A model generated the notes under the pieces. The model was not told the origin of the DNA, searched no databases, and saw nothing but the letters and a program-made list of their open reading frames with translations. A program made the translations under genes and the position numbers. Of a DNA stretch of 64,000 bases, positions 38,559 through 40,922 are shown piece by piece (position 1 is the first letter of the stretch; each line of letters starts with the position of its first letter). The stretch is from contig NZ_CP026721.1 in assembly GCF_004117075.1 (NCBI RefSeq), forward strand, positions 1,426,001 through 1,490,000. The letters run 5' to 3'. The DNA is from Fervidobacterium changbaicum. GTDB taxonomy: Bacteria; Thermotogota; Thermotogae; Thermotogales; Fervidobacteriaceae.

Positions 38559-38592
38559 CCCTCGGCGCTTTCAGGCCCGAGGGTTTTGTTTT
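38559..38592 (+). terminator. terminator of glnA
   Basis: CCCTCGG (38559-38565) pairs with CCGAGGG (38577-38583), followed by TTTTGTTTTT. Confidence 0.85.
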
Positions 38593-38601
38593 TACACAGT
38601 A

Positions 38602-38634
38602 TTGACAATTTATCAGTAATGATATATAATCATT
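38602..38634 (+). promoter_or_regulatory. consensus promoter of the PadR gene with overlapping dyad
   Basis: TTGACA (38602-38607), exactly 17 bases, then TATAAT (38625-38630) is a full-consensus sigma-A promoter. The -10 lies within AATGAT-N5-ATCATT (38618-38634), a natural site for autoregulation by the PadR protein encoded next. The dyad role is inferred. Confidence 0.75.
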
Positions 38635-38692
38635 TTGGAAAGTGGAACACTCTTATCTTACTTATCTTGACGTGTTAATGGAGGTGTGAGGT

Positions 38693-39064
38693 TTGCGTAG
38701 AAAATGTGGATGTAGTCACCAAGGGCATGGTCCTCACAGATGTGGAGAAATGGGATTTTCGGTTGGAGACTACTTAACGGCAGCTATTTTGAAAGAGCTA
38801 TTGAAAAAACCAATGCACGGGTACGATTTGTACGAGAAGATAATCAACTCCGAGTATTATCCATTTAAACATGACCAAAGTGTTGTTTATAGCTTGTTGA
38901 GAAAACTTAATTCGCTCGGGTTTTTAAGGTACTCTCTTGAAGAGGGAAATGGTGGAGTGAGGAAAGTTTACGAAGTTACTGAGGAAGGTTCTAGATATCT
39001 AGAAGAACTTACTAACTATATAGCTGATCTAAAAGACGCTTTTGAGAAATTTCTCAATTATTAA
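38693..39064 (+). CDS. PadR-family transcriptional regulator with Cys/His-rich N-terminus
   Basis: This 123-residue protein is a PadR winged-helix regulator (AAILKELLKKPMHGYDLYEKI, QSVVYSLLRKLNSLGFLRYS, YEVTEEGSRYLEEL) with a short dimerisation helix. Unusually, it starts with about 18 residues rich in Cys and His (RRKCGCSHQGHGPHRCGE) that could bind a metal ion. The start is TTG 38693 behind GGAGGTGTGAGG. The next gene, 32 bases downstream, encodes a His-rich NifX-like protein, so the pair probably forms a metal- or cofactor-responsive unit. A dyad overlaps its own promoter. Confidence 0.88.
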   Translation: MRRKCGCSHQGHGPHRCGEMGFSVGDYLTAAILKELLKKPMHGYDLYEKIINSEYYPFKHDQSVVYSLLRKLNSLGFLRYSLEEGNGGVRKVYEVTEEGSRYLEELTNYIADLKDAFEKFLNY

Positions 39065-39096
39065 CAAAGATATTTTAGAATTCAGGAGGTGGCGTT

Positions 39097-39531
39097 ATGA
39101 GGTTTGTTATTCCAACGGACGATGGTAACGTAGTTGCGGATCATTTCGGAAGAGCTATGTATTTCATGAAAGTGGAAATTAAAGATGGGAAAGAGATTTC
39201 AAGAATTTTGGTAGACAACCTCCATGCGAGAAGTCACGGAAACCATGGGCACCATGGACACTACGAACCCGGGCATCACGAACATGCACATGGATATGGA
39301 CATGGACGCGAGTTCGGACATGAGCATGAACACGGACATGGACATGAAGAGGTTTTTGCCTCAACGGGAGAAATAGATGCGGTAGTTGCCGTGAGAATTG
39401 GTCCGCATATGTTTGAAGACCTTAAAGAAAGAGGCGTAGATATTTATCTTGTAAAGCCTCGCACTTCAATAAACGAAATTGTCTCTAAGATGCTCTCAGG
39501 TGAGTTAAAAAAGCTCGAATTAAGAAAATAA
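39097..39531 (+). CDS. NifX/NafY-like (dinitrogenase cofactor-type) protein with histidine-rich insert
   Basis: The 144 residues begin RFVIPTDDGNVVADHFGRAMYFMKVEI, the fold of the NifX/NifB C-terminal domain that binds iron-sulfur or FeMo-cofactor precursors. The second half (IDAVVAVRIGPHMFEDLKERGVDIYLV) completes it. Between them, at about residues 44-84, is a stretch with about 20 histidines in HGHH, HEHAH and HEHEHGHGH patterns, which should bind Ni, Zn or Co. Similar small proteins occur widely in anaerobes without nitrogenase. It is co-oriented with the PadR gene and followed by a terminator. Confidence 0.85.
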   Translation: MRFVIPTDDGNVVADHFGRAMYFMKVEIKDGKEISRILVDNLHARSHGNHGHHGHYEPGHHEHAHGYGHGREFGHEHEHGHGHEEVFASTGEIDAVVAVRIGPHMFEDLKERGVDIYLVKPRTSINEIVSKMLSGELKKLELRK

Positions 39532-39548
39532 GAGCAACGAATCAATAG

Positions 39549-39580
39549 AAAAATCCTTGGCGGAAGCCAAGGATTTTTTT
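39549..39580 (+). terminator. terminator of the PadR/NifX-like operon
   Basis: AAAAATCCTTGG (39549-39560) pairs with CCAAGGATTTTT (39567-39578) around CGGAAG, with a further TT. The A run on the left could also stop transcripts from the convergent gldA gene. Confidence 0.9.
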
Positions 39581-39630: not shown

Positions 39631-40752
39631 TCAGTGTTGATTGCTCTTGATTTGCTTTCGCTTCAAATAATCTTTGCCTAACATATCTGCAGTGATAATT
39701 GCCGCATAAACCATATCTGGTGTAACCTTAAACGGCATATTATGAATTGTTTCGCCTTCTGCGCACGCGGCTTGTGAAACAATTCGTATTTTCTCTTCTG
39801 TGCCATCTAAAATTCCCATTTGTTCCAAGGTTACTGGTAAGCCTACTTTAACACAAAAATCTAAAACTTCTTCTATTTCTTTCTCCGAACTATTTTGCAA
39901 AACTAGCTGGGCAAGTGTTCCAAATGCTACTTTTTCGCCGTGGTATAGATGATGGCAATCTTCAACCAACGTAAAGCCGTTATGAATTGCATGAGCGGCT
40001 GCTAAACCACCGCTTTCAAACCCAACACCGCTCAGATATATGTTAGCCTCAACAATTCTTTCGAGCGCTTCTGTAACAACTTTTGCCTCTGCAGATAATT
40101 TAGCCTTGTAACCTTCGTTTATTAAGGTTTCATAGCATAATCTGGCTATTGTAATAGCGGTGAGTGTTGGTTCCCCGCCAGCCATAGTAATCGCATGTGA
40201 ATCATAACACGCTTTCGCTTCAAAGTATGTTGCAAGGGCATCACCCATACCTGCCACAAGTAATCTAACAGGTGCTTTTGAGATAATTTCCGTATCGACG
40301 ATTACAATATCTGGGTTTTTGGGGAATAGTAAGTATTCCTCGAAAACACCATCGTCAGTATAAATCACCGATAGAGCACTACACGGTGCGTCGGTCGATG
40401 CAATTGTTGGAACAATAATGACAGGAGTGTTTCCATAATAGGCGACGGCCTTTGCTGTATCAAGAGCCTTTCCTCCACCTACTCCTATAACTCCCGAGCA
40501 TTTATGTGTTCGTAACAAGCTCACCAATCTACTTATCTCGTTCTTTGAGCACTCTCCTTTGAATATTTCAAATACTCCTTCGATGCCGTGTTGGTTGAGA
40601 CTTTTTTCGATAGTTTCTCTCGTCAAGTTCATCACAAACTCATCGGCAATGATGAAATATCTTTTTCCAAAAGGTTCCAGATACTTTCCGATGTAGTGTA
40701 AAGCACCAGCTCCTTGGATGTATTTCATAGGTGACTGGATAATTCTTAGCAT
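39631..40752 (-). CDS. gldA: glycerol dehydrogenase-like iron/zinc alcohol dehydrogenase
   Basis: This protein of about 373 residues belongs to the GldA branch of metal-dependent dehydrogenases. It has the nucleotide loop GVGGGKALDTAKA (residues 90-102), VPTIASTDAPCSALSVIYT, and metal ligands in GMGDALATYFEA, AAHAIHNGF and YHGEKVAFG. It oxidises glycerol to dihydroxyacetone with NAD+, or reduces similar carbonyls. ATG at 40752 is chosen because AAGGAGGAA precedes it; the longer frame to 40818 is not supported. Two CRP-like dyads lie 170-250 bases upstream. Its substrate may connect with the glycerol-phosphate enzymes at 11-15 kb, but that is speculative. Confidence 0.9.
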   Translation of the reverse strand: MLRIIQSPMKYIQGAGALHYIGKYLEPFGKRYFIIADEFVMNLTRETIEKSLNQHGIEGVFEIFKGECSKNEISRLVSLLRTHKCSGVIGVGGGKALDTAKAVAYYGNTPVIIVPTIASTDAPCSALSVIYTDDGVFEEYLLFPKNPDIVIVDTEIISKAPVRLLVAGMGDALATYFEAKACYDSHAITMAGGEPTLTAITIARLCYETLINEGYKAKLSAEAKVVTEALERIVEANIYLSGVGFESGGLAAAHAIHNGFTLVEDCHHLYHGEKVAFGTLAQLVLQNSSEKEIEEVLDFCVKVGLPVTLEQMGILDGTEEKIRIVSQAACAEGETIHNMPFKVTPDMVYAAIITADMLGKDYLKRKQIKSNQH

Positions 40753-40922
40753 ACGCTTATTCCTCCTTCTCTTCAAAGTTATAAAGTTCTGTTGAAAAAC
40801 GAAAATTACTATCTTCAAAATATCCTTCAGCTCGATGTTTTGGTGCTTTTTGAGAATTTAAAAGCATACGTACTTGATTGAGAAAAATTGGTTGACCAGA
40901 TTAAAAATGGAAGCGGAATAAT

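Follow-up and report, generated by a model that had tools for sequence, protein, structure and literature searches.

Closest described systems

Regulators of the PadR family are known mostly for the sensing of drugs and phenolic compounds, and most PadR proteins are sensors of small organic ligands; Rv3488 is a metal-binding PadR. The regulator described here resembles the small PadR subfamily (LmrR, bcPadR, cdPadR1, TM0937/2esh, Rv3488), which is characterised by a wHTH core, about 110-120 aa and a C-terminal helix. PadR proteins typically bind the promoter of their own gene, and the reported operator is an ATGT/ACAT inverted repeat (PMC3506622, PMC5050560). The protein encoded next to it resembles the Nitro_FeMo-Co/NifX-like proteins (MTH1175, 1eo1; 1rdu; the orange protein 2wfb) over the whole PF02579 domain, including HFGxA and the His/Gly of the loop. 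A NifX-type domain is also found in ORP and MrpORP of Desulfovibrio, where the Di-Nase domain of MrpORP binds Fe-S (PMC6345978), and relatives within the bacterial family of our locus keep NifX beside Fe-S ATPases of the MinD/Mrp type. Finally, a flexible Gly/His-rich segment, which likely binds Ni, Zn or Co, is shared with His-rich storage and chaperone proteins (Hpn, HypB, SlyD).

The locus differs from each of these systems. In contrast to the known small PadR subfamily, its PadR combines a CxC-x7-10-HxC arm with an ATCA-N4-TGAT array, and in contrast to MTH1175, 1rdu and 2wfb, its NifX-like protein carries a His-rich insert of 40-58 residues in the cofactor loop and the additional invariant residues H43 and H104. 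The Fe-S ATPase partners of other NifX-like proteins have been lost in this genus: unlike in Desulfovibrio, a full-length MinD/Mrp ATPase is missing, so that membership of an ORP/Mrp-type Fe-S system was ruled out, and PadR replaces the sigma-54 regulator. Compared with Hpn, HypB and SlyD, the insert sits in a NifX fold under its own PadR, and a nickel hydrogenase is lacking. Our literature search on PadR in connection with NifX, metal or Fervidobacterium returned nothing relevant.

Organisation of the locus

The window, i.e. the whole stretch of 64,000 nucleotides analysed here (G000:C1:1426001-1490000), belongs to the complete 2.27-Mb genome of a thermophilic member of the Thermotogota. A sequence-only reading had placed at 38602-39531 a PadR regulator followed by a NifX-like protein, behind a full-consensus promoter overlapped by a dyad. 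Coordinates and gene content hold, both proteins being members of their families by domain (PF03551 and PF02579, respectively), and the promoter indeed matches the consensus at 12 of 12 positions:

38559..38583, + strand: terminator-like hairpin of the upstream glnA (CCCTCGG...CCGAGGG, then T-rich), from a dyad search
38602..38630, + strand: sigma-70-type promoter, TTGACA-17-TATAAT
38680..38685, + strand: RBS of padR, GGAGGT, from the sequence
38693..39064, + strand: PadR-family winged-helix regulator, 123 aa, TTG start (PF03551, E 4.9e-11)
39084..39089, + strand: RBS of the nifX-like gene, AGGAGG, from the sequence
39097..39531, + strand: NifX-like protein, Nitro_FeMo-Co fold, 144 aa (PF02579, E 5.2e-14)
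39549..39578, no strand assigned: terminator-like hairpin between the module and a convergent glycerol-dehydrogenase-like gene, called on the - strand

On the + strand the order is thus glnA, hairpin, promoter, padR, nifX-like gene and closing hairpin, the latter being trailed by T residues on its + strand as well. The glnA hairpin, of which similar ones are found 3' of glnA in relatives, parts glnA from the module. In the loci read, the PadR-NifX pair has neither a metal transporter nor an efflux gene beside it. The glycerol-dehydrogenase-like gene (39631-40818, - strand) sits between the module and a histidine kinase gene; in two other genomes (G004, G008) the kinase gene directly follows the pair, without this intervening gene.

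The regulator scores 42.9 bits against PF03551 (curated cut-off 27) and has Thermotoga TM0937 as its nearest solved structure by sequence (E 8.6e-9). Its AlphaFold model (mean pLDDT 85.5, core about 87-98) takes the wHTH fold with C-terminal helix, and the best Foldseek matches are PadR structures. The NifX-like protein reaches 52.7 bits against PF02579 (curated cut-off 26.3), is the only match to this domain in the 2.27-Mb genome and resembles solved MTH1175 (1eo1; E 1.9e-8), while its AlphaFold model, built from two sequences, is too poor to use (pLDDT 43).

Operator array and ancestral regulon

The dyad noted earlier over the promoter is present as AATGAT-ATATA-ATCATT, and it turned out to belong to a longer array, ATCA-N4-TGAT-N5-ATCA-N4-(TGAT), overlying the promoter of padR itself:

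38612..38623, + strand: left operator ATCAGTAATGAT (ATCA-N4-TGAT) in the -35/-10 spacer, at the same offset in 7 orthologous promoters
38618..38634, + strand: dyad AATGAT-N5-ATCATT over the -10 box, made of the inner half-sites of both operator copies
38629..38640, + strand: right copy of the operator, in which ATCA is followed by a degenerate second half, over -10/+1

Embedding of the promoter in this array, with the right copy 17 bp downstream of the left one, is established at the level of sequence, and this placement would suit autorepression by PadR. ATCA-NTAN-TGAT stands at -13 from the -10 box in 7/7 promoters (64/70 positions matched) and a second, weaker copy at +4 (50/70 over the seven species), compared with maxima of 44 (left) and 46 (right) in 5000 shuffles, a test which is partly circular, as the consensus was taken from the same seven sequences and their relatedness was not controlled. 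In 5/7 promoters the -35 box (TGAC/TGAT) provides a further half-site. A pattern search found the left operator as a single exact match in the genome of the window, the only other operator-like place showing two to three mismatches and lying inside a gene. Either ATCA-N4-TGAT or TGAT-N5-ATCA could be the site of a dimer. The canonical ATGT/ACAT operator is not matched by this conserved array; it is, however, common among PadR proteins without defining them, and its absence does not disqualify a family member.

Searching 41 genomes with the operator pattern (up to two mismatches, reversed-pattern control) recovered the promoters of all arm-bearing PadRs except that of G007. Matches also lie upstream of PadR, NifX and DUF5320 genes, which makes this search a check independent of the partly circular shuffle test. 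In sister genera, this operator stands ahead of a PadR-DUF5320-DUF5320-NifX operon whose PadR is arm-less (G011), of four unlinked DUF5320 pairs (G010, G015, G016, G018) and, likewise unlinked, of two NifX genes (G010, G014), some of the small proteins assigned to DUF5320 scoring below the curated cut-off. Each of these sister-genus matches lies 37-59 bp ahead of a start codon; the remaining matches are about as frequent as in the reversed-pattern control. A PadR regulon with NifX and DUF5320 is therefore older than arm and insert: judging from these promoters, the conserved link from PadR to NifX is ancestral to the family, with arm and insert as later, paired additions. The idea of a self-contained module, as originally proposed, applies within the genus, but the regulatory link was inherited from this wider regulon, of which the module, by comparison of genomes, is a real, conserved and lineage-specific elaboration.

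Full-length MinD/Mrp-type Fe-S ATPases accompany NifX in G010-G012, whereas the genus of the window gave only ferredoxin-like or partial matches and G009, from the sister genus, gave no match. Such a loss of the partners of the ancestral cluster is consistent with a repurposed NifX. It also bears on an alternative in which the module is an Fe-S or redox sensor plus an Fe-S/heterometal carrier: a labile cluster, [2Fe-2S] or another, would sit on the arm, the NifX-like protein would still hold one of Fe-S or Mo type, and the histidines of its loop would serve as auxiliary or protective ligands. Metal-sulfur clusters on the NifX/ORP fold of known members (for example, the MrpORP Di-Nase domain, PMC6345978) and the Fe-S ATPases beside NifX in relatives speak for it, but precisely these ATPases are missing from the genomes with arm and insert, poly-His is better suited to Zn, Ni, Co or Cu than to Fe-S, and the NifX orthologues bearing the insert have no conserved cysteine. 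The hosts of the module belong to an anaerobic lineage and Cys3His is a known ligand set of [2Fe-2S], both of which fit a cluster; on the whole, we regard this alternative as unlikely, though worth keeping in view.

The Cys/His arm of the regulator

38693..38752, + strand: N-terminal arm of PadR, CxC-x7-HxC, from the alignment of seven orthologues

A CxC-x-H-x-x-H arm had been described for this PadR, and the sequence does read so; across the orthologues, however, H9 and H12 are not conserved and C17 had been overlooked. M1, R2, R3, C5, C7, H15 and C17 are invariant in 7/7 orthologues, giving the consensus CxC-x7-10-HxC with four potential ligands (Cys3His), and these four remain constant, yet length and sequence of the arm vary. 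C5, C7, H15 and C17 thereby provide the at least three to four conserved metal-type ligands expected of a metal-responsive repressor. Most of residues 1-19 are predicted to be disordered without metal (pLDDT <50), and the AlphaFold model contains no ligand cluster in the arm; such predicted disorder would be expected of a segment ordered by metal as well as of a merely flexible one.

Across the 103 genomes searched in the phylum, high-scoring PadR matches spanning the arm were confined to the seven orthologues. About 40 other PadR matches, whose N-termini were read, have short arms, often Gly/Arg-rich and some with isolated Cys or His (for example, MSHCRCRGMGCGGH). A scan of public genomes with the PadR alignment returned one arm-bearing relative (L077, on a contig of G009) and 23 arm-less PadRs.

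The same operator before the arm-less PadR of G011 indicates that operator recognition does not require the arm, which may serve another role. The Cys3His set could form a [2Fe-2S] or a purely structural Zn site, and the arm might be a small Zn knuckle or a basic RRxC arm for dimer stability or DNA contact, the PadR sensing an unrelated ligand or mainly autoregulating, and NifX alone handling metal. The operator shared with the arm-less G011 orthologue, the invariant M-R-R at the start of the arm and the preference of most PadR proteins for small organic ligands would suit such a structural arm. Against it, arm and His insert share one lineage and were retained together every time, which suits a shared metal theme, and a variable spacing of x7-10 is unusual for a rigid structural knuckle; we therefore consider a structural arm improbable, to the same degree as the Fe-S alternative.

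The His-rich insert and its co-occurrence with the arm

39226..39351, + strand: His/Gly-rich insert, residues 44-85, with 15 His, from the alignment with insert-less NifX

The insert stands between N-L-H43 and V86 in all seven NifX orthologues, spanning 40-58 residues with 10-17 His. About 20 histidines had been claimed for it; a His-rich insert is present, but it holds 15 His in 42 residues, and with the three in the remainder the whole protein has 18. Comparison with insert-less NifX proteins places it at the cofactor loop, as it spans and precedes the loop His/Gly conserved in the family (H79, G82). Besides H43 and H104, the HxHGH at the end of the insert is invariant. Among the seven orthologues, the core is 50-86% and the insert 30-90% identical, the insert alignment being loose, and composition is better conserved than residue order.

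His-rich loops can arise by low-complexity drift, and the variable length and order of the insert, together with its repetitive coding DNA (CAT/GGA codons), would agree with a neutral expansion that has no function. We hold this to be very improbable, given that all seven species retain 10-17 His and use both His codons, that the terminal HxHGH is invariant and that the insert is always paired with the Cys arm.

In all seven orthologous pairs, five in this genus and two in one sister genus, arm and insert occur together, and no arm-bearing PadR was found without insert; where arm-less PadRs from this family were read, the NifX proteins have no insert. Among the genomes examined in the phylum, arm and insert are restricted to these two related genera, and a single ancestral event may underlie all seven cases. 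The public-genome scan with the NifX-like protein alone yielded no relatives. The sister-genus pair lies in a different neighbourhood, so the linkage of PadR and NifX was kept across relocation.

Within the genus, the pair is absent from G001 (99% complete) and G002 (97%), and the less complete G003 and G005 likewise show neither gene. G001 has a clean empty site, glnA there directly adjoining the kinase gene that G004 and G008 carry behind the pair. Because G001 and G005 separate from G002 in the glnA tree, the absence requires two changes, and because the pair is present in the sister genus, its loss as a unit, about twice, is the natural reading of the gene content. Taken together, the data support a regulated two-gene module with conserved, lineage-specific additions of metal-type ligands to both proteins, and such paired additions in two genera suggest an as yet unstudied metal-handling switch.

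Metal preference and proposed mechanism

Judging from the ligands on offer, we infer that both arm and insert bind metal, and metal sensing and storage by the two proteins are plausible. The initial suggestion had been nickel or cobalt in the service of hydrogenase metabolism, and there are indeed reasons to think of it: Hpn and HypB are His-rich storage proteins or metallochaperones described in the literature as nickel-binding, and His/Gly repeats are good Ni binders in vitro. The gene content speaks otherwise. A search for the [NiFe] hydrogenase large subunit gave no match in the genome of the window and, across nine genomes of the genus, no match exceeding the cut-off, so that a nickel-hydrogenase accessory module was ruled out; the hydrogenases are of the [FeFe] type and occur in 9/9 genomes, with or without the module. 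CbiM gives a sub-threshold match here and is strong only in G002, where the module is absent. A role in sensing and storing nickel or cobalt for hydrogenase metabolism is accordingly quite improbable, clearly more so than an Fe-S or a structural role of the arm. For the same reasons a Zn-type metal is favoured and is probably the one handled, although this is a weak preference built on negative evidence; ZnuA is found in 8/9 genomes of the genus without a tie to the module.

An autorepressed two-gene operon, with PadR as a sensor of a probably Zn-type metal and the NifX-like protein as metal buffer, is the explanation to which we give about an even chance. A PadR dimer, or two in tandem, would bind the array of ATCA/TGAT half-sites over -35/-10 and block RNA polymerase. 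The disordered arm, with three Cys and one His per chain, would take a thiophilic divalent metal, most likely Zn(II), which would weaken DNA binding and switch the operon on, whereupon the NifX-like protein could buffer the surplus metal through its flexible His/Gly loop, held by a Nitro_FeMo-Co fold that may originally have been a cofactor or Fe-S carrier. Repression, the identity of the metal, the direction of the response and buffering are all inferred here from the arrangement of sites and ligands. Somewhat more tentatively, and at less than even confidence, the module might represent a new class of PadR metalloregulator, in which a disordered Cys3His arm senses metal and has co-evolved with a His-rich storage loop in a NifX fold, turning an old PadR/DUF5320/NifX cofactor-carrier regulon into a metal sensor-and-buffer switch. 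If true, this would add a mode of metal sensing to the PadR family and supply the PadR/DUF5320/NifX gene sets, which are widespread in anaerobic thermophiles and unexplained, with their first testable role; the operator as defined here renders the regulon directly testable.

Other PadR-linked units in Thermotogota

In G030, a PadR with an NCGCCH arm (L116, 2374-2742, - strand) is followed by a metallothionein-like protein of 81 aa (2124-2369, - strand; MCCCGCCCFHCCCCHCCCCKHHGRGHH...), which ends in a coiled-coil-like segment and matches no Pfam family above cut-off. Judged by sequence, this arm and the small protein next to it, both apparently turned cysteine-rich, possibly represent a second, independent metal-type conversion of the module. 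In other Thermotogota families (L016-L019, L146, L149, L150), the PadR-NifX unit takes another, unexplained form: the NifX behind PadR has a coiled-coil-like tail at its C-terminus, and most of these units include two permease-like membrane proteins. Other palindromes lie in the -35/-10 spacer upstream of the PadR/NifX units L116, L028 and L163 (GCACATATGTGC, CACTATTAGTG), which suggests autoregulation with diverged operators.
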